Shown here piece after piece: positions 7,347 to 35,119 of a DNA stretch of 35,119 nucleotides. How positions within the stretch are numbered: position 1 is the stretch's first letter; every line of letters begins with the position of its first letter. Under the pieces are notes generated by a model that saw only the letters and a program-made list of their open reading frames with translations, searched no databases and was not told the origin of the DNA. The DNA is from Halomonas chromatireducens (lineage in GTDB: Bacteria; Pseudomonadota; Gammaproteobacteria; Pseudomonadales; Halomonadaceae), in NCBI RefSeq assembly GCF_001545155.1, contig NZ_CP014226.1, forward strand, positions 2,675,267 to 2,710,385. The letters run 5' to 3'. The translations under genes and the position numbers were made by a program.

Positions 7347-8180
7347 TCAATCAAGCAGGCTGTCACCGACGGCGATGAACTGGCCCCGGCCTTCGAGCAG
7401 GGTGGCATTCTGGCCGAAGTATGCCCCTGGGCGAAACGGCTGGGTCTTCATTTCCATCAGGGTCTTGAGCGGCTCGCCGGGGATCGCGATGTTTCCGGTC
7501 GCCTGGTCCACCGTGGTGATCTTGCAGCGCTGGCAGGGCTTGCGTATGCCGAAGCGGTAGCCCTCGGGAGAACCAAGCTCACTCCACCCGTCCTCGGCAA
7601 AGGGGGCGGCTCCCTCCACCACGATATTGGGGCGAAAGCGGTTCATCGGCAGTGGCGAAAGCCCCTTGCGCTGCAGCGTCTGGTTGAGCGCTGCCAGCGA
7701 CGCCTCCGAGGCAATCAGGAAGGGGTAGCCATCGGCGAAGGCGGTGTGGGCGTTCTCGCCCTGCTGGTAGAAGGGCTCGACGGCACGACGCTCGTCCGGT
7801 GCAAAGCGCACCAGACGCAACCCGCTGCCTTTCCAGTCGCCCAGCACGGTTTTCAACCACTGCGCCGCCTCGGGGCCTTCGTCCAGCGCCCGGCAGGCAT
7901 CTTCCCAGACATAGGCCGTCAGCGACGGCTGGCCGCTGCGTGCCAGCTCGATGGCCAGCGGCGCCACCTCGGGATGTTCCAGCAGCAGCCGGTCGCTTTC
8001 CAGGCGGACTGCGATCCGAGCCATGGCCGGCATCTGCCGCTGGGTCACGAAACGCCCCACATCGTCCACCACCATCCAGTTTCGATCATGGGCGATACCT
8101 CGTTCACCGAGTTCCGCCCGCTCCAGGGTAATTCCACTCAGCGACTTGACCGGATACAGATGGATTCCCGAAATCTTCAC
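7347..8180 (-). CDS. MOSC domain protein, YcbX-like without the ferredoxin domain
   Basis: A 277-residue protein that opens with the MOSC N-terminal beta-barrel pattern ISGIHLYPVKSLSGITL and has a C-terminal MOSC domain with the conserved cysteine region GIRKPCQRCKITTVD and NRFRPNIVV. MOSC domains bind the molybdenum cofactor through that cysteine; E. coli YcbX reduces N-hydroxylated compounds and carries an added C-terminal 2Fe-2S domain, which is absent here as the protein ends at GDSLLD. Probably a cytoplasmic reductase or Moco-binding protein of N-hydroxyl detoxification type, acting with a separate electron donor (inference). Expressed alone on the minus strand. Confidence 0.85.
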   Translation of the reverse strand: MKISGIHLYPVKSLSGITLERAELGERGIAHDRNWMVVDDVGRFVTQRQMPAMARIAVRLESDRLLLEHPEVAPLAIELARSGQPSLTAYVWEDACRALDEGPEAAQWLKTVLGDWKGSGLRLVRFAPDERRAVEPFYQQGENAHTAFADGYPFLIASEASLAALNQTLQRKGLSPLPMNRFRPNIVVEGAAPFAEDGWSELGSPEGYRFGIRKPCQRCKITTVDQATGNIAIPGEPLKTLMEMKTQPFRPGAYFGQNATLLEGRGQFIAVGDSLLD

Positions 8181-22037: not shown

Positions 22038-22814
22038 CTAATAACTCATCAAAATACCATTCTTCACACAGTCCTTCATAATTCCACGCGTTGTAGCAGC
22101 AACGTCATTTGACAAGAACAGCTTCTTGCGCTCATTTTCAAGAAAGTCAGCCCCAAAATCTTTCGTCAAGTGGATAGAAGCATAAGTAAGCCCATCAAAA
22201 TCTTCTCTACTAAAATACCACCCACCTACATAACCGCCTACTTCATAGTAACGAGAGAAAGCCCACTCCATTTTTTTAGAAATCTCGTGCATTTCATTTT
22301 CGCACTCGGCTGGAATATAATAACTTATCGCCACCTCCCCCACGTTAACTTGCAACCGCATAACAATCGACTCACCACTCTCACGAGATATATGATAGTA
22401 CGCATCTATTTGGCCAGGGATATGATTGACCCGTATAGTAGTCTTGCTATTCCTCAATGCCTGCTCAATATCATTGCCATTTACCTTCTTGCTTTCCCAC
22501 AGCTTAAACTCGCCTTCTGGAAAATCAATAAGCAAACAAGCCCTAGGAAAGGTTTCTAAAAAAAGCCGCTCCGCACGTTTCTGAAGATTTATCACATTGA
22601 CATCTTTTTCAGAAAAGAAAACCACAATTGCTATCACAATACCTGAGGCCGCGACTTGACCAAGCGACATAGCAACCAATATCCAGTCTTGCCGATTTTC
22701 TTTACCAAGAAAATAGACAGAAACTCCTACAGCACTTATAAGAGCAAAAGCAAGAACACTTAAAGCAACAACCTTGACCCAGCTGGGGGCATAAATAAAA
22801 TTCTTACTCTCCAT
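22038..22814 (-). CDS. Unknown A+T-rich two-helix membrane protein
   Basis: 258 residues from the ATG at 22814 (MESKNFIYAPSW), preceded by a G-rich stretch about 10 nt away; an alternative start at 22880 is possible. Two transmembrane helices lie near 12-34 (VVALSVLAFALISAVGVSV) and 46-68 (ILVAMSLGQVAASGIVIAIV), followed by a soluble domain of about 180 residues with YYIPAECENEMHEISKKM and VGGYVGGWYFSREDF. I do not recognise the family. Base composition and codon use (many AAA, ATA, TTA) differ sharply from the flanking G+C-rich genes, a sign of recent transfer. It is on the opposite strand to the other island genes. Confidence 0.65.
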   Translation of the reverse strand: MESKNFIYAPSWVKVVALSVLAFALISAVGVSVYFLGKENRQDWILVAMSLGQVAASGIVIAIVVFFSEKDVNVINLQKRAERLFLETFPRACLLIDFPEGEFKLWESKKVNGNDIEQALRNSKTTIRVNHIPGQIDAYYHISRESGESIVMRLQVNVGEVAISYYIPAECENEMHEISKKMEWAFSRYYEVGGYVGGWYFSREDFDGLTYASIHLTKDFGADFLENERKKLFLSNDVAATTRGIMKDCVKNGILMSY

Positions 22815-22856
22815 GAACAAAAACCCCCTAATCAATATGTAAAAAAGCAATAATAA

Positions 22857-22880
22857 ATGAGAAGACAAACAACTTCTCAT
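22857..22880. repeat. Inverted repeat upstream of the membrane-protein gene
   Basis: ATGAGAAG (22857-22864) and CTTCTCAT (22873-22880) form a perfect 8-bp inverted repeat with an 8-nt spacer, 43 bp upstream of the chosen start of the membrane-protein gene. It could be an operator site. Confidence 0.4.
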
Positions 22881-23395: not shown

Positions 23396-23790
23396 ATGGG
23401 CTACCGCTTTACCGACCTCACCGCCGCCTGCCAGGACGACTGGCGCGCCTATACCGAGCACGACTTCGTGCGCAGCCTCGGGGCCGGTACCCTGGCCGAA
23501 GACGCTTTCCGCCACTACCTGCAGCAGGACTACCTGTTCCTGATCCACTTCGCCCGGGCCTATGCCCTGGCCGCCTACAAGAGCCGCACCCTGGCCGACC
23601 TGCGTCAGGCCCATGAAGGCTTGAAGGCCATCGTCGACGTGGAGCTGGGCCTGCACGTGGGCTACTGCCGCGAGTGGAACATCAGCGAGGAGGCGCTCGC
23701 CAGCCTGCCCGAGGCCCGGGCCACCATGGCCTATACCCGCTATGTGCTGGATACCGGCAATCGCGGCGACCTGCTCGACCTGCACGCCTT
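23396..23790 (+). pseudogene. tenA: Thiaminase II tenA, 3'-truncated
   Basis: From the ATG at 23396 (GGAGG upstream) the product matches TenA for about 130 residues: WRAYTEHDFVRSLGAG, FRHYLQQDYLFLIHFARAY with the substrate-binding Asp, and the end ATMAYTRYVLDTGNRGDLLDLH. TenA is normally near 220 residues; here similarity stops just where the family has its active-site Cys (in an APC-G-Y context), and the late Glu is lost as well. The frame runs on to 24064 through unrelated fragments, so any product would be an inactive chimera. Intact TenA hydrolyses aminopyrimidines for thiamine salvage. The riboswitch upstream has thus lost its functional target. Confidence 0.85.
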
Positions 23791-23827
23791 ACCCATGGCG
23801 CCCTGCCCCTGCCCGAAGCGAGCAACG

Positions 23828-23908
23828 CATGACTCTATCGATGGGAGCAGCCTCCGGCCCCGCCCAGCGCGCCCGACGCACCTGGAACATCGACCAGTGG
23901 GGCAGCCC
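23828..23908 (+). pseudogene. Possible 5' fragment of a PLP-dependent arginine decarboxylase-type gene
   Basis: In a frame different from tenA, ATG at 23828 begins MTLSMGAASGPAQRARRTWN and continues IDQWGSP, then similarity ends near 23908. The W-x-I-D-x-W-G-S-P pattern recalls the N-terminus of biosynthetic arginine decarboxylase (SpeA-type) proteins. Only about 27 codons remain, so this is tentative. It lies between the tenA fragment and a channel-protein fragment. Confidence 0.35.
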
Positions 23909-24030
23909 TTTATTGGCCTGACAATTGGTTTGAGAGGCCTTCAGGTCGATGCTGATGATGTCGATACCCTCAGGGTGGGTATTGCGAGCATGATAAACGG
24001 CGCCGCTATTGCCTTTTTGACATCAGTATG
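23906..24030 (+). pseudogene. MotA/TolQ/ExbB-like channel gene fragment
   Basis: About 40 codons in the frame that continues the tenA fragment read FIGLTIGLRGLQVDADDVD then TLRVGIASMINGAAIAFLTSVWG. The order G-(T)FIGLTIGL, a gap, then L-x-x-GI-x-x-(x)-I-x-GAx-xAFxTSxWG is the signature of the last helices of MotA/TolQ/ExbB proton-channel proteins, a group that includes ZorA of the Zorya anti-phage system. Both ends of the gene are missing. Too short to say which member it is. Confidence 0.4.
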
Positions 24031-24831
24031 GGGATTACGAAACAAGGGGCGCTTGACCGGTTAAGTGAGCTACGCTCGCGAATTCCGTCTATTATACAGG
24101 AGGGACAGGAATCGACTGATTACTTCCGTTGGCGGAAGGATGCGGAAGCCGCACTAGTTAACTTCTTTTCCCTGTCTGAGGGCAAGCGACACCTGACCGA
24201 ATTCAAAGACATTCATTCGCAACTGCCCCCGCGGCACGTACAGTCGCTTGATCTCGGCGTCGGGTGGAAGACCTTCGATAAGGCGATGGAGCTGTCCTCG
24301 GAGTACTTTAAGTCGGTCGAGCAAGAAATCCAGGATTACTATGAAGACGAGGCAGGCACGCCTCGTGCTAGTGTCGAGGAGTCAGCTCCTGGCAACGTGT
24401 TCATTGTGCACGGCCGCGATCAAGCGCTCAAAGAGGCTGTGGCGCGCTTTGTCGCGAAAATAGGCCTGAATCCCATCATCCTGCATGAGCAAACCAACGA
24501 GGGGCGAACCCTTATCGAGAAATTCGAGGCGAATGCCTCAGCCGATTTTGCGATCGCTTTGTTCACGCCCGATGACGTAGGCGGGCTGAAGAGCGACACG
24601 CCGAGCCTCTCTAACCGCGCTCGTCAGAATGTTCTGTTCGAATTTGGCTACTTCCTTGGCCGACTGGGGCGGAGGCATGCCTGCGCACTAGTGCAAGGAG
24701 AAATAGAGCTGCCTTCAGACTATTCGGGAGTCGTGTTCATTCCAGTCGACTCCGCCGGCCATTGGAAGTTCGAGCTTCTTCGCGAGCTAAAGGCGGCTGG
24801 GTTTTCCATAGATGCTAACCGGGCTTTGTAG
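24028..24831 (+). CDS. TIR-like nucleotide-binding effector (PF10137 type), integron cassette gene
   Basis: 267 residues. An N-terminal helical part (1-115, with DRLSELRSRIPSIIQEG and YFRWRKDAEAALVNFF) precedes a TIR-like domain (about 123-245): NVFIVHGRDQALKEAVARFV, EGRTLIEKFEANASADFAI, LFTPDDVG, and RARQNVLFEFGYFLGRLGR with its conserved acidic residue Glu205. This is the predicted nucleotide-binding/TIR domain of the CAP12/Pycsar effector group, where such domains degrade NAD+ during anti-phage defence. No cyclase gene is adjacent, and the N-terminal part may be the sensor. No ribosome site is evident before ATG 24028; the first codons overlap the fragment upstream. An attC site follows 6 nt after the stop. 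Confidence 0.82.
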   Translation: MGITKQGALDRLSELRSRIPSIIQEGQESTDYFRWRKDAEAALVNFFSLSEGKRHLTEFKDIHSQLPPRHVQSLDLGVGWKTFDKAMELSSEYFKSVEQEIQDYYEDEAGTPRASVEESAPGNVFIVHGRDQALKEAVARFVAKIGLNPIILHEQTNEGRTLIEKFEANASADFAIALFTPDDVGGLKSDTPSLSNRARQNVLFEFGYFLGRLGRRHACALVQGEIELPSDYSGVVFIPVDSAGHWKFELLRELKAAGFSIDANRAL

Positions 24832-24837
24832 GCGTTT

Positions 24838-24905
24838 GCCTAACTCAAAGTTGGAGTCGACGGCTCCGTCTTTGGCGAAACCGCGGCTCAACCCGAGCGT
24901 TATGT
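24838..24905 (+). other. Integron attC recombination site
   Basis: The sequence starts GCCTAAC (24838-24844), fitting RYYYAAC, and ends GCGTTATGT (24897-24905), whose GTTATGT fits GTTRRRY at 6 of 7 positions. Between them GTTGGAGTCG (left, about 24850) can pair with CGGCTCAAC (right, about 24884) with one unpaired G, the R/L asymmetry of attC. The right arm GCGGCTCAACCCGAGCGTTA is very like the aadA-type attC arm. Length is 68 bp. It lies just after the TIR gene and 16 nt before the next start, exactly as in a cassette array. Confidence 0.85.
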
Positions 24906-24921
24906 AGATATGGAGTTTTAA

Positions 24922-25815
24922 ATGAACGTCATAGATGTAAGGGCCTTCGAAAGCGATTTTGTAATCTACTTTGGCGGAGAGCCGAAGCGGATTAATGCCT
25001 ATACGCTAGCCTCATCTTTGGTCTCGATCGCTGACGCCGTTAAAGCGGCTAATACCCTGATTAATCCAGGGTATGATGTTGAAGTCGTTGTCGAGGCATT
25101 TGGGGAAGGGAGTTTTAAAGCAAAGGTTCGAACACTATATAGCGGCGCGTCGAACCTTTTTTCAGCTGAAAATCTAAAGACTATAACTCTTAGCGTAGTA
25201 GCCGCTTACGTATATCAGCAAACCTTGTCCCCGGACCAAGAAATTAACGTCGTCGTCAATACTGCCGAAGTGATTGTTGAGCAGGGAGACAACAAGATCA
25301 TCGTGCCCCGTGATGTCCATGATTGTGTTAAGGAAGTCGAAAAGTCCGAAAAATTTACTCAGAGTATTGGCAAGACTTTTGAGGCGGTAGAGAAAGATAA
25401 AAATATCGAGAGCATGGGATTCATGCCTAGCTTCGATGATGAGATACCGATTATATTGATACCCAGAGCTCGGTTTGGGCTCATTTCAGCCCCCCCAGAG
25501 GTCGAAGACAATCAGCGAGAAGTGCTGGAAGTTGCAGACTTGCATATTTTACGAGCAATTTTGGAGCGTGGGAAGAGAAAGTGGGAGTTCGTTTGGAGAG
25601 GGATAAAAATATCCGCACCTGTTCTAGATCAGCAATTCTTCGATGATTTCTTTGCGCATAAGATAATGATCGCTCCTGGTGACTCGATCGAAGTTAGATT
25701 AAGAATATATCAGTCGCGCGACCAAGATACCGGCATCTTTACAAATAACAGATATGAGGTCGTCGAGGTATTGCGCCACATCCCGCGGATGAAGCAGGTT
25801 GCCTTGCATGATTAG
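24922..25815 (+). CDS. Unknown cassette protein
   Basis: 297 residues with GGAG seven nt before the ATG, which lies 16 nt after the attC site, so this is the next gene cassette. No family is recognised. The first 95 residues look like an alpha/beta domain (FVIYFGGEPKRINAYTLASS, IADAVKAANTLINPGYDVEV) ending in a hydrophobic segment (LKTITLSVVAAYVYQQTL). The rest is a beta-rich region with EVADLHILRAILERGKRKW and the basic-acidic ending HIPRMKQVALHD. No signal peptide and no catalytic motif is seen. Its A+T content is higher than the host genes. Function unknown; a defence or phage-related role would be inference from the TIR gene next to it. Confidence 0.75.
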   Translation: MNVIDVRAFESDFVIYFGGEPKRINAYTLASSLVSIADAVKAANTLINPGYDVEVVVEAFGEGSFKAKVRTLYSGASNLFSAENLKTITLSVVAAYVYQQTLSPDQEINVVVNTAEVIVEQGDNKIIVPRDVHDCVKEVEKSEKFTQSIGKTFEAVEKDKNIESMGFMPSFDDEIPIILIPRARFGLISAPPEVEDNQREVLEVADLHILRAILERGKRKWEFVWRGIKISAPVLDQQFFDDFFAHKIMIAPGDSIEVRLRIYQSRDQDTGIFTNNRYEVVEVLRHIPRMKQVALHD

Positions 25816-25817
25816 CC

Positions 25818-25872
25818 ACATAACACGGCGCTCCACCCGACCGAGTGCCGCCTAGCGGCCCGCGTCGCATCT
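25818..25872 (+). other. Possible truncated attC (left half only)
   Basis: Right after the cassette gene stop comes ACATAACACGGCGCTCCACC, with a good left-arm look (RYYYAAC-like ACATAAC, 6 of 7), then CCGACCGAGTG and a central hairpin GCCGC-CTA-GCGGC. The matching right arm and a GCGTTA core are not found; A+T-rich sequence begins near 25872. This would be a cassette 3' end broken by the next insertion. Confidence 0.35.
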
Positions 25873-25913
25873 TTTGGAATTTAAGTTAATAAAACCTTTC
25901 AGAATTTAGGGCT

Positions 25914-28442
25914 ATGATGAATATCGATTATGACTTAACTGAAATAAACAGAACTATTTTCAATTGTATATCTAGGGCTTGTATAGGGGCTGAGCCGTTA
26001 GAAGCCCTAATTGTTGAGGGTTCTTTTATTCCAAAAGAAAGCTTGCTATGGGACTACAAAGAAAGTATTAGCTCAGAATCACTTGCTTTAGCCAAGACAG
26101 TGCTGCAAATTGTAAGCTTTCATAATACCTGTGGAGGATATCTTGTCTACGGCGTTAAAGAAATTGAGAAAGATAAGGAATTTTCTCCAGCGAATTTAGA
26201 CTTTTCACAAGTTGATCCAGCCCAATTAAGAAACAAGATAAAGCACTTTACGGGCCGATCGATTGATATCACTTTTAAAGAAGTTAATTACTCTCTGAAG
26301 GGGGAGGGGTATAATGCAGGTGTAATATTTATTCCCAAGAGAGAGAAAACATCAAGCCCCGTCTCTTTTATAAAAAATGGACCTGAGAAGAGGCCAGGAA
26401 AGCCTCTGTTTTGTCCCGATGAAACTTATTTTAGGCATTTGGATGAGTGCGTTAAGGCTACAACAGCTAGCGATTGGCAAACACTTTTTTCTTCAAGAGA
26501 ATTCAATCCATCCTATGGCCTAAATAATAAATTAGAGGAAAGCGACCTACTCCAAGTAACACACAACTTGCCGGATAAGAATTTAATTTGTGCAACCTTT
26601 GTAGGTCGTGATAGTTTGCTTTCGAGATTGTGGGAATGGCTTTCTGATGATTTGGAATATACAAAAATTCTTTCTGGAGATGGAGGAAAAGGAAAGACAT
26701 CAATAGCATACCAGTTTTGTCGAACCTTCATCCAATCTTCACCTTCGGGGTATGAAAGGGTCGTTTGGTTATCTGCAAAAGAAAAACAGTTTTCTGGTAT
26801 TCATAATGAATATTTTGAGTTACAAGAGTCTGATTTTAACAGTTGCCATAGTTTCTTGCTTCTTTTAATAGAAAACTGTGCGATGGCTGTGGAAGAGTAC
26901 GAAGATGTTTCCACAAAGCAACTAAAGAGAGATTTAAAAGATTCGTTACCGCTATTTCCTTCTATTTACGTAGTGGATGATATTGATTCCTTGGAAGAGG
27001 ATGAGCAAAGAAAAGTAGTTGATGCTTGTCGTCAGTTAGGATCTAGCAATACGAGATACCTTATAACAACAAGAAAAAAATTGGCATATTCTTCGGATCT
27101 ATGTATAGATGTTCCTGGGTTTCCAATAGATGATTTTACCTTATATGTAGATTCTCTAGTTAGTAGATACTCGCTAGCAAGTATCAAGAAGGGTGATGTC
27201 GCTAGTCTTCATAAAACCTGCGACGGCTCCCCCCTCTTGGCGGCCTCAATACTTCGTCTATACAAACAAGGAGTGCCATTTTCTCAAGCTATAAGGGAGT
27301 GGAAAGGAGAAGCTGGTGAAGATGCTCGTAGCGCGGCTTTAAAAAGAGAAATAACTTCGCTGACGCCTGAATCTAAAAGAGTTCTATTGGCAATATTTTA
27401 TTTTGTAAACTGCTCTTTTACCGAGCTTAAGCAATCTGTGGGAATCGAGAGGATTAAACTAATCGACTGCCTTGAGGAATTACAGTCATTATTTTTGGTT
27501 AACGAGCCAAAGTTGATTGATAGTGAGGATCGATATTCTATTTCCAATACGACAGCGCTGATAATATCTGAAATACAGAAAGAGATGGCATTCGATCATA
27601 GAAAGTTGAGTACAACTATAAAATCTATGAAAGAAGGACCATCTGTCAAAAAGATTGGAAACACTCGAAAAGTTGGCATAGCTATAAATCAGTCCCTAGC
27701 CTTGATAAGGGATGGAAGAATTCCTGAGGCCATTGAGACCGTAGATCAACAGTTGCGATTCTTAAGCGAAAATCCTGATCTCCTCCTTATGAAAGCTCGG
27801 TGTATTTCAAGGCTTGACAGTCCAGACTATACAAAAGTAAGAGAATTGTTGCGCCGATCTTATGGCAAGGGACAACGAAAAGAGTTGTTGTTTGATTTAT
27901 GGTTCAAAACCGAATCTAGCTTGAATTCATCTAATGGAATAATCGAAGTTTCCCAGTTGGCGATTAAAATACAAGATTTTGACAAAACAAAATGGCTTGA
28001 AAGGCTAGCTACAGGGCTTGTCTTAAGGTCGAAACATAGAGATGTGATTTCAGGGCTGCAAGACTTAATGGATGCGAGTCTTGCATTAACAAAGTCACTA
28101 AACTATCTGGATCGAACATCGAAGGAAATTAGAATTGAGGAGCTAAATAGCTTGCACAACATAATATGGAATAAGCTAGAATTATCTAATAATCACAGTT
28201 GGCTAACTTGTTTCGACATGATTCTCGACCTGTTAAAGCGGGGAGATGTTCGAACGAAAATGTTTATTAATGCGAGCAGGTGCTTGGCTGAGACTAGAGC
28301 CGAAGGAATACAAACTGAGAAAAAGAAAAATGCATACAACCGCTGCGTTGATAGATTTCTTGAGCTATTAGATGATAGGCCAGAGAAAGATAAGCATGAC
28401 AGACCGTTTTCTAATATTAGGGATGAGCTTTGTGAAATTTAA
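25914..28442 (+). CDS. Schlafen/AlbA_2-STAND NTPase fusion, likely anti-phage sensor-effector
   Basis: 842 residues, starkly A+T-rich. Residues about 35-190 resemble the Schlafen AlbA_2 fold: LLWDYKESISSES, then AKTVLQIVSFHNTCGGYLVYGVKE (written in two parts of the same helix-strand unit) and VIFIPKREKTSSPVSFIKNG. A STAND/NB-ARC NTPase follows: FVGRDSLLSRLWEWL, P-loop GDGGKGKTS (255-263), Walker B IYVVDDIDSLEE (351-362), sensor RYLITTRKKLA and GSPLLAAS (438-445). Winged-helix and helical-repeat parts fill 470-842. In STAND proteins the repeat end senses a ligand and the N-terminal domain acts; Schlafen-type domains are often nucleases. The gene stands alone. The start lacks a clear ribosome site; ATG 25917 is an alternative. 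Confidence 0.85.
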   Translation: MMNIDYDLTEINRTIFNCISRACIGAEPLEALIVEGSFIPKESLLWDYKESISSESLALAKTVLQIVSFHNTCGGYLVYGVKEIEKDKEFSPANLDFSQVDPAQLRNKIKHFTGRSIDITFKEVNYSLKGEGYNAGVIFIPKREKTSSPVSFIKNGPEKRPGKPLFCPDETYFRHLDECVKATTASDWQTLFSSREFNPSYGLNNKLEESDLLQVTHNLPDKNLICATFVGRDSLLSRLWEWLSDDLEYTKILSGDGGKGKTSIAYQFCRTFIQSSPSGYERVVWLSAKEKQFSGIHNEYFELQESDFNSCHSFLLLLIENCAMAVEEYEDVSTKQLKRDLKDSLPLFPSIYVVDDIDSLEEDEQRKVVDACRQLGSSNTRYLITTRKKLAYSSDLCIDVPGFPIDDFTLYVDSLVSRYSLASIKKGDVASLHKTCDGSPLLAASILRLYKQGVPFSQAIREWKGEAGEDARSAALKREITSLTPESKRVLLAIFYFVNCSFTELKQSVGIERIKLIDCLEELQSLFLVNEPKLIDSEDRYSISNTTALIISEIQKEMAFDHRKLSTTIKSMKEGPSVKKIGNTRKVGIAINQSLALIRDGRIPEAIETVDQQLRFLSENPDLLLMKARCISRLDSPDYTKVRELLRRSYGKGQRKELLFDLWFKTESSLNSSNGIIEVSQLAIKIQDFDKTKWLERLATGLVLRSKHRDVISGLQDLMDASLALTKSLNYLDRTSKEIRIEELNSLHNIIWNKLELSNNHSWLTCFDMILDLLKRGDVRTKMFINASRCLAETRAEGIQTEKKKNAYNRCVDRFLELLDDRPEKDKHDRPFSNIRDELCEI

Positions 28443-28563
28443 TTTCGTGCCCCCCCTTTCTCATAACAAACCAAAGCACTCGGACACAGCATACCTGTGC
28501 CAGTGTTTGAGGCATTAGTCTCAACCCAGCGAACGCCATGTCCACCAGACGCTTTGCAAAGAT

Positions 28564-28582
28564 ATTACATTTTTAATGTGAT
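28564..28582 (+). promoter_or_regulatory. Imperfect palindrome and possible promoter of the large regulator
   Basis: ATTACAT (28564-28570) and ATGTGAT (28576-28582) form an imperfect inverted repeat (one mismatch), overlapping a TTGCAA (28553-28558 region) and TGTGAT pair with about 17 nt between, usable as a sigma-70 promoter. It lies 20 nt before the likely start of the XRE-AAA gene, so auto-regulation is possible. Confidence 0.35.
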
Positions 28583-28601
28583 ACCGCCAAGGACCCCACC
28601 A

Positions 28602-31600
28602 GTGATCATCCCCCAAGACGGGCGCTTGCGGCTGGATCGTGAGCGCTTGAAGCAGCATCGCAAGCGGTTGGGCCTGAGTCAGGAGGCGCTGGCCGAGTAC
28701 TGTTTTGATCGGCGTTTGTGCCTCTCCATCGCTTCCATCAAGCGGGCGGAGAGTGGCAAGGCGGTGCTGTATCGTACCGCGCGCCATCTTGCTGAGATCT
28801 ACGGCGTTGAGGTCGAGGCGCTGTCGGTGGAGGCCGAGGAGGCTTCCTCCGTGTCCGCCGCCGATGTGGAGGAGATGGAGAGCGCCCGCGTGCTGATCCA
28901 GCTCCATGCCATGGGGGCCGATCCGTCGGCGCTGGCGAGCTGTGTTCAGCATTTCGGCGGTAGCCTGGCGGAAGAGGGAACAGCCCTGTTCGGGCTGCCC
29001 CGGGCGTACCGAAGCGATGCGCAGCGTGGCTTGTTGTGCGCCGCTACCCTGATGGAGCAGGGCGTGGCCCGCAGCGTTTACCTTCAGGCCGGGCACTGGC
29101 CGACGACGACTCCTCCTGCGATAGCGAACGATGCGAGCGGCGTCTGGGTCGAGCGCGGCGTGGCGGTGCAGTTGGCGGAGCGCTTCGTCTTCGACGATGA
29201 AGGCGGGGAGTGGCTGCGCTATCGCCATCTCCGGGACGAGGCACATGAGGCCCGCTTCGATCTGGTGGGGCGCCGGGTGGAGCTGGGGCAGCTGCAGGCC
29301 ATCCTGGAGAGTACCCGGGCCTACCAGGCTGGCCATCTGGTCTATATCCGCGGCGTGGCCGGCATCGGCAAGACGCGCCTCAGCGCCGAGTTTGCCGAAA
29401 TGGCCGCGGCCCATGCCGATCACCACCAGGCCGAGGTGCTGGACTTCGGTACCCGCGCCGATGAAGGCCCGCTGATGCAGCTCACGCGCTCGCTGCTGCA
29501 AACCTCCGGCGAGGGGCAGGGTGAGGTGAAAGGGGAGGGATTTGACGAGGCACAACTGCTCGCCCGCCTCTCCGCACTTCGCCTGCCGGTGGATCATGCC
29601 ATGCTGCTGCGTCCGCTGCTGGGGTTGCCCCAGCCGGAGGAGGCGCAGTCTCTCTATGCGGCCATGACTCCCGCGACTCGCAGCCAGCGCCTGGTACAGG
29701 CGCTGCGCGACGTGCTCCTGGCGCGCTCCATCCATCGCCCCCAACTGCTGGTGGTGGAGGACCTGCACTGGGCCGACGAGGCGCTGTTGGCCACTCTCAC
29801 CGGGCTGCTGCAGAAGACCCAGGATGCACCGGTGATCTGGCTGTTTACCTCGCGTCTGGAGCAGGACCCGCTGGAGAGCCGACTGCGGCCGCAGCTGCCC
29901 GAGCTGCCCCTCACCCTGATCGAGCTGCCGCCGCTTCGCGCCCAGGAGGCCGAGGCTCTGGTAGCCAGCTTCGGCACGGTACCCGCCGAGCATGCTGCCC
30001 GCTGCGTGACACAGGCTCAGGGCAACCCGCTGTTCCTGACCCAACTGCTGCTGTTTCACCCCCACCGCAGCCTGCCGGCCAGCCTCGCCAATCTGGTACA
30101 GACCAAGCTGGACCAGCTCACCGACCTGGATCGCCGGGCCATGTGCATCGCCGCCGTGATGGGGCAGCGCTTCTCCCTGGCGTCGCTGCAGGAGGTGCTG
30201 GGCCAGGCCGATTACCAGCCCGAACTGCCCCAGCGCTACAGCCTGGTTCGCCCGCTGGAAGAGGGCAGCTACCGCTTCGTGCACGACCTGATCCTGCAAG
30301 GGATCTACGAAGGCATTCCCAAGATTCAGCGCGACCGCCTGCACCTGCGCTTGGCCGAACTCTACGGCGACGCGGAGCCGGGGCTGCGGGCGCGCCACCT
30401 TCATCGCGCGCGCTCCCTGGAAGCGCCAAGTGCCTTCCTGCAGGCGGTAGCGGCGGAAATGGCCCGCTACCGGCACGAGGAAGCCCTGGCCCTGCTGAAG
30501 CAGTGCCGCTCCATCGATTATGCGCCGAAGGATGAGTACCGCCTGATGCTGTTGCAGGGCCAGGTGGCGATGGCCACCGGGCACATCCAGGCGGCGCGGG
30601 AGCACTTCGAGGCGGCCCGTGTGTTCGCCCGGGAGGAGCGTCAGCGCATTACCGCCGATCTCTGGCTGGCCCGGGTGCTGAATATGCTGGATGCGTTGGA
30701 GGCGGAGGAGGCGATACTGGATGGCCTGCTGCCCCTGGCCGAGGCGCTGGAGAACCCCTTGCCCCTGGCCGAGGCGCTCTATCTCAAGGGCAACCTCTAT
30801 TTCCCCCGGGGCGATTTCGCCACCAGCCGGGCCTACCACACCCGCGCCCTGGAGCAGGCCCGCAGTGGCGGCGACGTGCGCACCGAGATCCAGGCCCTGA
30901 GCGGGCTTGGCGATGCGCACTATGCCGAGGGGCAGATGCGAAGCACCCTCGAGATGTTCGACCACTGCGTAACGCTCTGCCGTACCCATGGCCACGCCGA
31001 CCTTGAAGCCTCCAACCTGTTCATGCTGGGTACGGCACGGATCTATGCCAACGAGACCGACCAGGCCCTCGCCGACTGCTTCGATGCCGCTGAGCTGGGC
31101 AAGCGGGTCGGCAATCGGCGCGCCGAGGTGGTGGCAAGGCTCACGGCGGGGTGGATTCTAATTTCCCAGGGCGATCCCCAGGCGGCCGACGAGCAAGTCG
31201 AACAGGCGCTGACGGTGGCACGCGGCCTGGGTTCGGGGCGCTTCGAGGCCTTCCTGCTGGAGAGCCGTGCCCGGGTCGAGCTGATGACCGGGCGGCTGGT
31301 CGAGGCCCGAGCCAGCATCGAGCGGGCCTGGCAGCTGGTGGAACAGCATGGGCTGAAGGCTTTTATCGGCCCTTGGGTGCTGGGCACCCGGGCGCTGCTG
31401 GAAGAGGCGCCCGAGACACGCCTGGCGACTCTGAAACAAGGCGAAGCGCTGCTGGATGCCGGCTGCGTGGGGCACAACGGCTATCGCTTTCTGATTGCCG
31501 CGGCGGAGGTCAGTCTGCTCGACCGGCGGCCCGACGCGGCGCGCCACTATGCCCAGCGCCTTACACGGCTGATGGCGGCTGAACCCTGCGCCTGGGGTGA

Positions 31601-31772
31601 GTACCACCGGGCCCTGATCGAGGCACATGCCGACTGGCTGGAAAGCGGCCGCGGGCAGGAAAAGAAGAGCGACGAGGCGAGCGCCCTGGAAGCCCTACGG
31701 GTGTGCTGGCACCGGGGCGAAGCCGCTGGCCTGCTGATGACTCTGCCTTGCCTTGCTGCCAGGCGGTGCTAG
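28602..31772 (+). CDS. Large XRE-HTH / AAA ATPase / TPR regulator
   Basis: 1056 residues from GTG 28602, chosen because AAGGA lies 8 nt upstream and the product starts VIIPQDGRLRLDRERLKQHR; earlier in-frame GTGs read through non-coding sequence. Domains: an XRE-type helix-turn-helix (about 5-75, RKRLGLSQEALAEYCFDRR); a region near 90-225 resembling a degenerate nucleotide-cyclase fold (VQHFGGSLAEEGTALFGLP); an AAA_16 ATPase with FDLVGRRVELGQL, P-loop GVAGIGKTR (about 250) and Walker B LLVVEDLHWADEALL (about 382); and a long TPR array (about 600-1040). This is the build of STAND-like signalling regulators. It overlaps the FAD gene tail to tail and is likely the regulator of that locus (inference). 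Confidence 0.85.
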   Translation: MIIPQDGRLRLDRERLKQHRKRLGLSQEALAEYCFDRRLCLSIASIKRAESGKAVLYRTARHLAEIYGVEVEALSVEAEEASSVSAADVEEMESARVLIQLHAMGADPSALASCVQHFGGSLAEEGTALFGLPRAYRSDAQRGLLCAATLMEQGVARSVYLQAGHWPTTTPPAIANDASGVWVERGVAVQLAERFVFDDEGGEWLRYRHLRDEAHEARFDLVGRRVELGQLQAILESTRAYQAGHLVYIRGVAGIGKTRLSAEFAEMAAAHADHHQAEVLDFGTRADEGPLMQLTRSLLQTSGEGQGEVKGEGFDEAQLLARLSALRLPVDHAMLLRPLLGLPQPEEAQSLYAAMTPATRSQRLVQALRDVLLARSIHRPQLLVVEDLHWADEALLATLTGLLQKTQDAPVIWLFTSRLEQDPLESRLRPQLPELPLTLIELPPLRAQEAEALVASFGTVPAEHAARCVTQAQGNPLFLTQLLLFHPHRSLPASLANLVQTKLDQLTDLDRRAMCIAAVMGQRFSLASLQEVLGQADYQPELPQRYSLVRPLEEGSYRFVHDLILQGIYEGIPKIQRDRLHLRLAELYGDAEPGLRARHLHRARSLEAPSAFLQAVAAEMARYRHEEALALLKQCRSIDYAPKDEYRLMLLQGQVAMATGHIQAAREHFEAARVFAREERQRITADLWLARVLNMLDALEAEEAILDGLLPLAEALENPLPLAEALYLKGNLYFPRGDFATSRAYHTRALEQARSGGDVRTEIQALSGLGDAHYAEGQMRSTLEMFDHCVTLCRTHGHADLEASNLFMLGTARIYANETDQALADCFDAAELGKRVGNRRAEVVARLTAGWILISQGDPQAADEQVEQALTVARGLGSGRFEAFLLESRARVELMTGRLVEARASIERAWQLVEQHGLKAFIGPWVLGTRALLEEAPETRLATLKQGEALLDAGCVGHNGYRFLIAAAEVSLLDRRPDAARHYAQRLTRLMAAEPCAWGEYHRALIEAHADWLESGRGQEKKSDEASALEALRVCWHRGEAAGLLMTLPCLAARRC

Positions 31773-33437
31773 CCGCAAGGGGTTAGTACGACGCTCAGGT
31801 GCCGCCAGCAGCAGGGCGACGAGGTGCGCCGATTGCTCCAGGCACTGCTCCTGCAGGCCGGCACCGCGTGTCCAGCCCCCGGCAAACAGCAATGGGCAAC
31901 CATCCTGATGACCCTCGAAGCGCCGCCGGGTGGTGGTCTGGTTATAGTGCTCGATCTCCGCTTGCGCCTCCAGGCAGTTGGCATCCAGCACGTTGTGCTT
32001 GAACAGGGTCCAGGCCTTGGCCTCCAGGGTGGGGTCCAGCGGCGGCAGCCGGTCTCGGTAGCCGGCCTCGCCGGGGTCGGTGGCCGCCAGCGTTGCGGGT
32101 GCGTCCAGCGGAGAGGACTGCCGCTCGAGCATCTCGCTGCGGGGAATCCGGTTGAGATCGTCCACCAGGGAGACGAAGAACTGCGGCAGGCCGGCCTGAT
32201 TGTAGGCAGGGTTCTCGGCATCGTTTTGGTGGCGGTTCGCCACGTAGTCGATACGGTAGGGGAAGAAGGTGTCTTCCGGGTTGCGCACCTCGATGTTGTA
32301 GGTCCGCCACAGGTTGCGATTGGCCGGCAGTCGGCCGGCGGCGGTGTGGCAGACGCTGAAGCTGCGGGTGTAGCGCACCTTGCCGAGGATGTGCTGCAGC
32401 GCCCGCTGGGTGTCGCTCAGGCTGTCGCCGAACGTCAGCAGCGGCAGGGCGTCTTCGGCATGGGTGGCCATGATCAGCAGGTCGGCTTCCCAGCGGCGTT
32501 CACCGGGATCACGCTCCGTCAGCGTCACGCCCTGGGTCGAGAGGCTTGCCTCTACCTCGATGCCGCGCAGGATCTCAACGCGGGGACCCGGCGTATTCGG
32601 GCTGGTGATGTGCGCGGCCAGGGCCTCCAGCCAGTGCTGGGCACCGTGCTCGAAGTAGCGGCGGTCCGGGGGCGAGCCGCCCTCCTGAATGCGGTAATAC
32701 TCGAAGGGGGCCTGGAGCGGCATACCGCCTGGGCCGCGGTCGTCGGCAAAATACATGGCCGAGATGCGGGGGTAGTAGATGGTCTGTCGGATACGCTCCA
32801 GCCGCACCGGAAGCTCGGGGTCCTGCCAGTCGATGGTAACGCTCAAACGCTCGGCCGCCGCGGCCAGCATATCGGCGGGGACGGCGATACAGGCGTCGAA
32901 GAAGTCATCCACCGTATAACGCGGCGTAATGCGGCGATTCTCCACCAGGTCGATGGCGCTTTGGTGGACCACAGGGATCAGCAGCGCCAGCTGGCCTCCA
33001 TCGACCTTGCTCAACTCGTGGTTCGGGTCGCTGACGCCGCGGAACAGGTCCTTGTCATCGGTCAGGGCGATGCTCCCGTCACGGCTGAAATAGCTCTCGG
33101 TGTTCTCCAGGGGCTTCATGCGCTCCAGCTCGCCGATCTCGCTGAGTATCGTGCGCAGCCGGTGGTAGGTGGCCAGGTTGACGTCATTGACCCCCAGGTC
33201 GGCCCAGCGGCGATAGGGCGAGTCGGGCTTTCCGGGATGGCGCCGACAGCCCAGGTCGACCCACACCGTCTCGGCGTTGCCGCCCAGGGTGGTCTTGCGC
33301 TCGAAGATGGTGACCTCGAGCTGCCGAGCCGCCTCGCTGCCGAACGTTTCCCTGCCGAACCTTTGCAGGTAGTAGGCCAGCGACAGGCCGGAGACCCCGC
33401 CGCCGATGATGGCGACTCGCAGCGGTGCATGGTCCAT
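31695..33437 (-). CDS. FAD-dependent amine-oxidase-like oxidoreductase
   Basis: 580 residues from ATG 33437 (MDHAPLRVAIIGGG), with GGGG upstream; the longer frame is non-coding. The N-terminus is a Rossmann FAD-binding site (VAIIGGGVSGLSLAYYLQR, then FERKTTLGGNAETV), and the C-terminal GGWTRGAGLQEQCLEQSAH is the second FAD motif. It belongs to the flavin amine oxidase/phytoene desaturase-like group; the substrate is unknown. Its last 26 codons overlap the convergent regulator gene by 78 bp and read PPGSKARQSHQQASGFAPV, which looks like an added tail. It is divergent from the VapA-like gene across 240 bp. Confidence 0.85.
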   Translation of the reverse strand: MDHAPLRVAIIGGGVSGLSLAYYLQRFGRETFGSEAARQLEVTIFERKTTLGGNAETVWVDLGCRRHPGKPDSPYRRWADLGVNDVNLATYHRLRTILSEIGELERMKPLENTESYFSRDGSIALTDDKDLFRGVSDPNHELSKVDGGQLALLIPVVHQSAIDLVENRRITPRYTVDDFFDACIAVPADMLAAAAERLSVTIDWQDPELPVRLERIRQTIYYPRISAMYFADDRGPGGMPLQAPFEYYRIQEGGSPPDRRYFEHGAQHWLEALAAHITSPNTPGPRVEILRGIEVEASLSTQGVTLTERDPGERRWEADLLIMATHAEDALPLLTFGDSLSDTQRALQHILGKVRYTRSFSVCHTAAGRLPANRNLWRTYNIEVRNPEDTFFPYRIDYVANRHQNDAENPAYNQAGLPQFFVSLVDDLNRIPRSEMLERQSSPLDAPATLAATDPGEAGYRDRLPPLDPTLEAKAWTLFKHNVLDANCLEAQAEIEHYNQTTTRRRFEGHQDGCPLLFAGGWTRGAGLQEQCLEQSAHLVALLLAAPERRTNPLRLAPPGSKARQSHQQASGFAPVPAHP

Positions 33438-33510
33438 GGTGGTGCCCCCAGGAAATTGTTTCCCCAAGAATCCATCAAGAGCACGTCGCAACCAAGGGCC
33501 TAAGGTGAGC

Positions 33511-33580
33511 TGATACCGAAGTGATCCGTTGCGCTTCGAGCGGCCCTTTGCAGCGCTTGTGGTGATACCGAGGTGATGCG
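33511..33580. promoter_or_regulatory. Two near-identical 18-bp direct repeats in a divergent promoter
   Basis: TGATACCGAAGTGATCCG (33511-33528) and TGATACCGAGGTGATGCG (33563-33580) differ at two positions and are spaced 52 bp start to start, about five helical turns. They lie between the divergent FAD-oxidoreductase and VapA-like genes, a natural place for a regulator site. Confidence 0.6.
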
Positions 33581-33677
33581 GTCGGCATGAGGTATCTGGG
33601 TTGAAATGCTTAGGACAGGTAAGCCGCGGTCGGTTTCCGACCGTCGATATCCACGATATCCGCACAGGTAACTACCG

Positions 33678-34115
33678 ATGAACGCTCCTCTGATCATCGA
33701 CAAGCAGCTGATTGCCCATGACTTCCGTGTCGCTATGCATGGCAAGCTCGAACCGGAGAAGATCTATGATGTCACCAAGACATTGGTCGCCTCCCGGAAG
33801 TCCTATCCCGCCAAGGGCAGCCTGGCCAGCCTGATCTTCTATCTCAAGTTCCAGCTCAACATCACCGATGGCAAGAGCTTCGACGGCCATGCCGGCAGCG
33901 CCTCCTCACCGGGCGGCGGTACCTTCTTCGGGCACGTCTACACCGACGATCTCGAGCGGCTCTATCGCGATACCGTGAGCTTCGAGTTTCAGGCCACGCC
34001 GGTCTACCTGAGCATCCTGTACTTCGACAGCCACAGCAAACTGCTGGGCCACTTTCAGACGGGGGCCGTCTCCATCGTCACCGGCGTTGGTGGTGGCAAG
34101 GGTAAGTGGCACTGA
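33678..34115 (+). CDS. VapA-like (Rhodococcus virulence-associated protein family) protein
   Basis: 145 residues. After about 60 mixed residues (EPEKIYDVTKTLVASRKSYP) comes a glycine- and aromatic-rich beta region: SSPGGGTFFGHVYTDDLERL, YRDTVSFEFQATPVYLSILY, FDSHSKLLGHFQTGAVSIVT and the end GVGGGKGKWH. This sequence of motifs closely recalls the eight-stranded barrel of the Rhodococcus equi VapA family (PF05526). VapA itself is secreted and acts in macrophage lysosomes; here there is no signal peptide, and the role is unknown. It is divergent from the FAD oxidoreductase and has AGGT before the start. Alternative readings: a small lipid-binding or surface barrel protein. Confidence 0.7.
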   Translation: MNAPLIIDKQLIAHDFRVAMHGKLEPEKIYDVTKTLVASRKSYPAKGSLASLIFYLKFQLNITDGKSFDGHAGSASSPGGGTFFGHVYTDDLERLYRDTVSFEFQATPVYLSILYFDSHSKLLGHFQTGAVSIVTGVGGGKGKWH

Positions 34116-34318: not shown

Positions 34319-35119
34319 TTACTTGCGGCGGCCGGTGATCAGCAGGTATTCCCGACGGATATGAATACCGGCGTCCGCGGTGTATTTCCCGTGGTAGCTG
34401 TCGATATCCTTCCGGAAGGCTTCCTGCTCACTGGCGGAGAGGTTGTCCATCACTTGGCGGATGGGCCCGAAACCGCGTGCATACCAGTCCCAGGCATCGT
34501 TCACGTTGTCGAAATAGTGGTTGTTGATCCCAGGCTCGAACCACAGCTCAAAGTCCTCTCCCAATAGGGCCCTGGCGTGATCCGGGTCGCCCCAGGCCAG
34601 CGGCGAGGGTTCGGGAGGCGGGTCCCCGCTGTGCTTGCCGATCACTCCGAAAAAATCCAGCACCGCACCTTCGGCGGCCCATACGGCCAGCGACAGGCGC
34701 CCGCCCGAGCGGCAGACCCGTGCCAGTTCGCGGGCTGCCTGTGCCTGGTCGGCGGCAAACATCACCCCGAAGGTGGAGATCACACCGTCGAAACTGCCAT
34801 CCTCGAACGGCAGCTGTTCGGCATCCGCCTGCTGGAAACGGATCGGTGGCTGCATGTGGGCGGACAAGTCCTTGGCGGCGTCCAGCAGCCTTGAGGCAAT
34901 ATCCACTCCTGTTACATGCGCTCCGTATCGGGCTGCATTGCGGGCGCTCCAGCCCGTGCCGGTTGCGACATCGAGAACATGCTGTCCGGGTTGTGGGTTG
35001 AGCCTCTGCGCCGCATGGGCGAGGGCATCCGACACGCCGAAGCTGATGTTGTCATAGTGCTGCCCGCCAAGGTCCCAGGTACGGGCCGCGGCCTCATGGT
35101 GAGGCCGGACCGCAACCCC
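34319..35119 (-). CDS. Class I SAM-dependent methyltransferase, 5' end beyond the window
   Basis: The frame is open from the window end to the stop at 34319, about 266 residues. The visible part starts GVAVRPHHEAAARTWDLGG and continues through the SAM motif HVLDVATGTGWSARNAARYG, the acidic VTGVDIASRLLDAAK, the adenine-binding FQQADAEQLPFEDGSFDGV and the post-motif FGVMFAADQAQAARELARVC. It ends HIRREYLLITGRRK. This is a UbiE/Methyltransf_11-type methyltransferase for a small molecule; the substrate is unknown. A shorter start at GTG 35035 is possible, but the upstream residues read like genuine protein, so the real start probably lies outside. Confidence 0.87.
   Translation of the reverse strand, partial: GVAVRPHHEAAARTWDLGGQHYDNISFGVSDALAHAAQRLNPQPGQHVLDVATGTGWSARNAARYGAHVTGVDIASRLLDAAKDLSAHMQPPIRFQQADAEQLPFEDGSFDGVISTFGVMFAADQAQAARELARVCRSGGRLSLAVWAAEGAVLDFFGVIGKHSGDPPPEPSPLAWGDPDHARALLGEDFELWFEPGINNHYFDNVNDAWDWYARGFGPIRQVMDNLSASEQEAFRKDIDSYHGKYTADAGIHIRREYLLITGRRK

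Follow-up and report, generated by a model that had tools for sequence, protein, structure and literature searches.

Gene content of the locus

The window, meaning the whole stretch of 35,119 nucleotides that was analysed, carries on its forward strand three consecutive genes that look like gene cassettes, followed by a flanking gene found in many relatives. The first cassette seen (24034–24831, +) codes for a protein with a CAP12/PCTIR-type TIR domain, matched by PF10137 (E 3.7e-38; 130.6 bits against a cut-off of 24.7 bits) and by the PADLOC profile PDC-S35 (E 2.6e-74). This TIR protein retains the NV-FEFG stretch of Cap12, whose Glu we take to be the predicted catalytic residue, and its N-terminal half had no Pfam family match. 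Membership of the CBASS systems that include Cap12 was not supported, as NF050172 gave 43 bits, its cut-off being 450, and the neighbouring genes that were scanned included no cyclase. The first codons of the gene are probably missing from the window; in two homologues (L010 and L011), the start lies no more than about 3 codons from 24034. Comparison of the TIR protein with plasmids returned 1154 records, none covering at least 80% and none exceeding 60% identity, and no homologues were found in viral contigs. The TIR gene is likely to be an anti-phage gene.

The second gene (24922–25815, +) is a PDC-S42/'LAPAL motif' gene of 297 residues (NF053583, 201 bits; PDC-S42, 66.7 bits), the latter profile marking it as a defence candidate in PADLOC. 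It had 683 homologues at E≤0.001, and the named ones among the 120 listed were often from marine bacteria; one homologue bears an Mrr_cat nuclease domain. Two full-length relatives (48% and 38%) occurred in viral contigs, one weak phage match (22%) was obtained, and the gene also matched a PHROG of unknown function. Among 369 genomes of the class, the gene was found in one, the window's own, and a profile search against solved structures returned nothing at E 0.5 or better. The possibility that it codes for a phage structural protein, as its NCBIfam name implies, was considered and is weakened by its place between attC sites and by the homologue with Mrr_cat. The third gene (25914–28442, +) combines SLFN_AlbA_2 (PF04326) and NB-ARC (PF00931) domains, and a near full-length homologue (33%) lies at the same locus in G083. 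These two are probably defence genes too. To the right follows an AAA_16/TPR gene with an N-terminal HTH (28584–31772, +), which forms the conserved right flank.

The attC sites

A 68-bp site, attC1 (24838–24905, +), lies in gene orientation at the 3′ side of the TIR gene, and the spacing that the first-pass annotation had described was borne out: the TIR stop codon (24829–24831) is followed by 6 nt, attC1, 16 nt and the ATG at 24922. The R″ and R′ core boxes stand at the conserved spacing. The annotation had claimed RYYYAAC and GTTRRRY cores, and the first of these holds (R″, GCCTAAC), whereas R′ (GTTATGT) departs from the strict consensus by a T at its fifth base, although GTTATGT is the second commonest R′ box of the family, present in 18 of 150 attC from integrase-bearing arrays. 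The paired arms with an unpaired base, likewise claimed, were recovered in the sequence itself as well as in the model alignment, in which L″ and L′ pair and L″ has one extrahelical extra base. Cores and arms of this quality are not rare, and an equal-scoring site under a hand-made score was held by 15 of 100 Markov-simulated windows (13 of 400 simulations for the surrounding 6.5 kb by the same score); a search by consensus only was therefore rejected as weak evidence.

Covariance models were built from attC of other genomes. An intI search over 275 genomes of the same family gave 84 with a match at E≤1e-40, and these were the source of the array attC. The model R1 was made from 33 hand-picked attC in arrays beside integron-integrase genes and gave 187 matches at E≤0.1 in 33 of 40 fetched integrase loci, training sites included; R2 was made from 150 of those 187, and neither contains the window's own sites. 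It was found that attC1 scored 16.6 bits (E 0.012) under R1 and 25.5 bits (E 1e-4) under R2, being the top R2 match in the window, ahead of 28461–28520 (24.5 bits) and of a site inside coding DNA (17.2 bits). Across 27 other loci (363 kb), only three attC exceeded 17.8 bits under R2, all in two loci fetched for their TIR homologues. When R2 was run on the genome, the matches listed included six strong attC at 1860306–1865699, the 28461–28520 site at 24.5 bits and a next match at 19.3 bits; attC1 was absent from that listing, for which 150 of 3121 candidates were scored. Thus the covariance-model check that had been proposed returned attC1 as the best match in the window and further attC elsewhere in the genome. 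By sequence and model, attC1 is a real attC. Rfam at its gathering threshold reported no attC family, its sole match being a TPP riboswitch, and the search of plasmids for a DNA relative of attC1 gave a single match, at E 0.9 and covering 42% of the query.

The folding of attC1 was also assessed. Its bottom strand, left unconstrained, folds in an ordinary manner (37 of 200 shuffles fold equally well), and the R/L-paired form is not the free-energy optimum. With the R and L arms forced, the fold probability was 0.9%, within the middle half of the 150 array attC (about 0.06%–16%, median about 2%). The support for attC1 comes from its 3′ half (profile score 12.8) and from the pairing, as its 5′ half is a poor fit to the usual attC of the genus, with a profile score of 1.0 that ranks 87th among 70,190 window positions. 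Its type is unlike the genus's usual attC, with a TC spacer where 139 of the 150 training attC have AA or CA, which suggests another lineage as the source of the TIR cassette.

The two following genes end in attC as well. Directly 3′ of the stop codon of the 297-residue gene, a half attC (25818–25842, +) begins with ACATAAC and keeps R″, spacer and L″, with no matching L′ or R′ seen; its 5′-half profile score of 19.3 bits was reached at none of 433,974 control positions. The decayed terminal site attC3 (28461–28520, +; R2 24.5 bits, E 1.9e-4; fold probability 4.2%) lies 3′ of the SLFN/NB-ARC gene and has ATTAGTC as its R′, where GTT would be expected. Thus, three consecutive genes end in an intact, a truncated and a decayed attC, respectively, and the cluster of attC that the first-pass annotation had reported stands in this form. 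An ATTA R′ instead of GTTA in the terminal attC was seen in three genomes (window 28514–28520, L153 and L161), and the array end could be locked by this change. Another stretch resembling an attC 5′ half was observed at 7665–7689 (−), inside an open reading frame at 7347–8180 (−), and its score of 16.8 bits also exceeds all 433,974 control positions.

A variable locus shared by relatives

From about 28584, within the AAA_16/TPR gene, the window is again similar to relatives. A set of 18 relatives' loci with this gene or its 5′ part, chosen from a longer listing of matches, was compared, and attC were found beside the gene in 16 of them, the loci of G051 and G014 giving no attC match. Left of the AAA/TPR gene extends a variable stretch of about 2.7–12.4 kb in the 13 loci with a left limit set, the content of which differs among genomes with only some pieces in common; the genes beyond it are presumably katG and a cold-shock/DUF1294-type gene. 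All 54 attC matches at E<0.05 in the 18 loci point in the same direction as the flanking AAA/TPR gene, as do the 7 weaker ones left uncounted (61 in total), and 43 of the 44 matches in the 13 delimited loci fall inside the variable stretch. No intI was detected by tblastn (E≤0.1) in the 18 stretches, and an intI further left would escape detection in the five loci whose left limit was not reached. At its left end in L144 and L145, the variable stretch is similar to the DNA that precedes an integrase remnant in G006, and this end is therefore regarded as attI-like. Separately, in L146, L147, L154 and L155 a stretch similar to the AAA/TPR gene is confined to its first ~510 bp (window 28586–29098) and stops at the same point (29097/29098) in all four, which hints at another insertion point within this gene.

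Several of these loci hold cassettes with genes of known defence families. For example, two attC enclose Hachiman HamAB in G048, and Lamassu LmuA/LmuB is enclosed in the same way in G040; other relatives' loci carry dGTPase, Old/Gabija-like, Septu-like and TIR genes. PADLOC matches at E≤1e-10 were obtained for 15 of the 40 proteins scanned individually, in 9 of the 16 loci represented; the 40 were drawn from 98 of 155 open reading frames, picked mainly by size, and some matches were partial or weak, such as those of 45–59 bits in L146 and L153. Four other TIR homologues were found in the genus (G056, G057, G073 and G079). An attC follows the G056 homologue after 1 nt and the G079 homologue after 12 nt, and the latter also has an attC upstream, so that it stands between two; no attC match was obtained in 19 kb for those of G057 and G073. 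The claim that the TIR and 297-residue genes are cassettes is strengthened both by the attC cluster and by the two of four TIR homologues that also end in an attC.

The genus as a whole is rich in such sites, with attC at E≤1e-3 in 82 of 90 genomes, while an intI match at E≤1e-40 was recorded for 37 among the matches listed; comparing the two lists, 47 of the 82 attC-bearing genomes have no such match, provided that the family search covered all 90.

An ordinary defence island in which attC-like sequences arose by chance would have to account for this recurrence. It is true that core matches alone are frequent in simulations and that a site inside coding DNA reached 17.2 bits. Nevertheless, the three sites of the window are in register with three gene ends and all gene-oriented, the score of the half attC has no equal among the control positions, and 16 of the 18 relatives compared have attC at this locus, so that this explanation is hardly credible.

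A probably composite assembly to the left of the TIR gene

The sequence left of 24034 looks chimeric, and whatever preceded the TIR cassette is consequently not visible. The gene tenA, coding for a TPP-riboswitch-linked thiaminase II, is represented by its 5′ part only (23396–23781, +), cut at a probable contig end: TENA_THI-4 and TIGR04306 match it only to residue ~130–138, and its similarity to G006, G048 and G059 ends at 23807. The remainder of tenA lies at ~628.2 kb of the same genome, beside a gene that we take to be thiC, and is joined to the C-terminal part of purL, whose N-terminal part is at 1618 kb; both parts of purL include the same 63 bp, at 98% identity. Between tenA and the TIR gene stand two short patches. 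A 125-bp patch (23782–23906, +) is 100% identical to 588675–588799 (−) in the genome, the start region of what is presumably speA, and is probably a small misplaced contig. A 127-bp patch (23907–24033, +) is 100% identical to zorA at 2638284–2638410 (−) and supplies the apparent ATG of the TIR open reading frame. The source of this ZorA-like patch is a set of Zorya-like genes at 2634–2639 kb (L139 6212–10853), with a zorA of 680 aa and a second gene that we assume to be zorB. At the right end of the window, a 139-bp patch (34981–35119, +) is 100% identical to 2130574–2130712 (−) and marks a probable contig junction. Left of tenA, an open reading frame of 280 residues in AT-rich DNA (22038–22880, −) was matched by no family of Pfam, PADLOC, NCBIfam or PHROGs.

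Further short copies without a mismatch (82, 98 and 139 bp) are present in the genome, along with single Ns, and exact or near-exact copies of 63–139 bp were observed at gene-splitting junctions at 588, 628, 1618, 2130, 2638 and 3445 kb. These copies suggest that short contigs were concatenated into this single-contig genome, and the patch length is consistent with contigs placed end to end (2 × 63 − 1 = 125). The sequence thus looks like contigs strung together, with a real rearrangement as the alternative. One contig seems to begin at 24034, at the TIR gene. From 24034 to 33680 no copy was reported, with 40 of the 104 candidate stretches scored, and a less deep search extending to 34980 gave none either, so that 24034 to about 34980 is probably a single contig, with a hidden join possible between 25842 and 25914.

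The truncated tenA that precedes the TIR gene could also be read as the target of a lone TIR cassette, inserted in trans at a secondary (attG-like) site and breaking the gene. Against this, short patches shared with other parts of the genome fall at the very point where tenA breaks off, the missing part of tenA is found at 628 kb, joined to purL, which is itself split into parts that overlap by 63 bp, and a half attC and a third attC come after the TIR cassette. An insertion into tenA is accordingly most improbable, and it was rejected on the patches and on the splitting of both tenA and purL.

Integrase remnant and the origin of the array

The search for intI and for further attC, proposed in the first-pass annotation, had a mixed outcome: no intI was detected in the window by tblastn, and both an intI remnant and other attC were found elsewhere in the genome. 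The remnant is the only strong IntI match genome-wide (2035065–2035676; a 203-residue open reading frame, 211 bits) and has an internal deletion of about 120 residues, lacking residues 174–294, which is common to this genome and G006. A second array of six attC, carrying an AAA_13/PDC-S06 gene (737 aa), was observed at 1860306–1865699 (L173). The gene at its left boundary is presumably a transposase, and 67 bp of that gene are found again near the intI remnant. This array may represent the left part that the TIR array lacks. A second attI-like stretch was found at 2.2 Mb, and it could belong, together with the six-attC array, to the same integron as the TIR array. A complete sedentary chromosomal integron, with intact intI, attI and array, was not recovered, the only integrase sequence being the distant remnant. 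The window holds one full, one half and one decayed attC with no neighbouring intI, against the two or more attC by which a CALIN is recognized, and the true left neighbour is hidden by the contig start. The earlier remark that no integrase was in view carries little weight in this setting, because the window looks chimeric left of 24034, which makes the integrase-less appearance partly an assembly effect, and because the genome does have the remnant and six more attC.

It might be argued that the strain has a complete and active integron whose integrase is merely hidden by the assembly. The contig with the TIR gene apparently begins with that gene, the contig of the six-attC array borders the putative transposase with its 67 bp recurring near the remnant, and draft assemblies are described, in the available part of PMC9024848, as splitting integrons into apparently integrase-less clusters and thereby inflating their counts. 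The sole strong IntI match is, however, a remnant with the same deletion as in G006, other matches in the genome are at most 80 bits, with 14 control genomes also giving matches below the cut-off, the completeness of the genome is 99.99%, and the 18 relatives' stretches yielded no intI. A hidden active integron is thus unlikely, though less so than an insertion into tenA or a chance resemblance.

The reading that we favour, with a probability of about 0.83, is that attC1 is the 3′ attC of the TIR cassette, at the right-hand end of a chromosomal array of the sedentary-integron kind with a decayed integrase. An integron integrase would have inserted the cassettes via the folded bottom strand of their attC, and the array may once have been joined to the attI-like stretch and the integrase remnant of the genome, a link now hidden by the assembly. 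The cassettes would since have been kept beside the AAA/TPR gene, a place common to many species of the genus. The TIR protein would most likely cleave NAD+ and so stop phage growth. We infer this past integrase action and defence function, and with them the movement of defence genes by integrons at this locus, from sequence comparison. A more far-reaching proposal, that the locus is a fixed-site 'defence port' for cassettes, with content varying among the 18 species compared, apart from some shared stretches, and no integrase gene found at the site, is put forward tentatively and is rather doubtful; the turnover would proceed by some route such as trans-acting integrases or homologous recombination, and cassettes with attC of other types, for instance attC1, would still enter.

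Differing sets of defence genes are placed at one chromosomal locus, in a genus where attC are near-universal. It becomes testable whether cassette arrays still supply defence genes after the loss of the integrase. The locus also warns that 'integrase-less' calls on joined contigs can be artefacts.

Comparison with known systems

The TIR protein resembles the TIR NADases Cap12 and PycTIR in its PF10137 domain and NV-FEFG stretch, and differs from them in the N-terminal half with no Pfam match and in the lack of a cyclase among the neighbours scanned. The defence cassettes of Vibrio and of mobile integrons have reportedly been tested for function and are said to lie in integrons with working integrases, whereas those described here are predicted from sequence. 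Anti-phage genes as cassettes are reported for Vibrio chromosomal integrons and mobile integrons (doi 10.1126/science.ads0768, Science 2025; doi 10.1038/s41564-025-01927-7, Nat Microbiol 2025; both as cited in PMC12444791).

The locus resembles CALIN in having several attC next to which no integrase gene was found (as defined in the accessible parts of PMC9024848 and PMC7923331), and differs from them in that its integrase-less look derives partly from probable contig breaks and in that the left end of some relatives' loci still has an attI-like stretch. CALIN are known in halophiles such as Halorhodospira, according to the excerpt available of PMC7923331, and one, apparently of Halomonas sulfidaeris, stands in a table of PMC10295459, likewise available in part. 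Among the papers listed on integrons in Halomonas, none was seen to be devoted to such arrays.

A close parallel is with the chromosomal integrons of Xanthomonas, which, in the available part of PMC12444791, are likewise arrays in a fixed place with some phage-defence cassettes (20 of 1,087 orthologous genes), and whose integrase is inactivated or deleted in many lineages. The place of the array differs, being flanked by the AAA/TPR gene here and by ilvD in Xanthomonas (same source), and no intI was found here in the 18 stretches examined. The higher share of defence matches found here is not comparable with the Xanthomonas rate, since selection and method differ. Chromosomal cassette arrays with defence genes are already known elsewhere, as are arrays that the loss of the integrase has frozen, and what this locus contributes is a well-supported further example rather than a new type of system.
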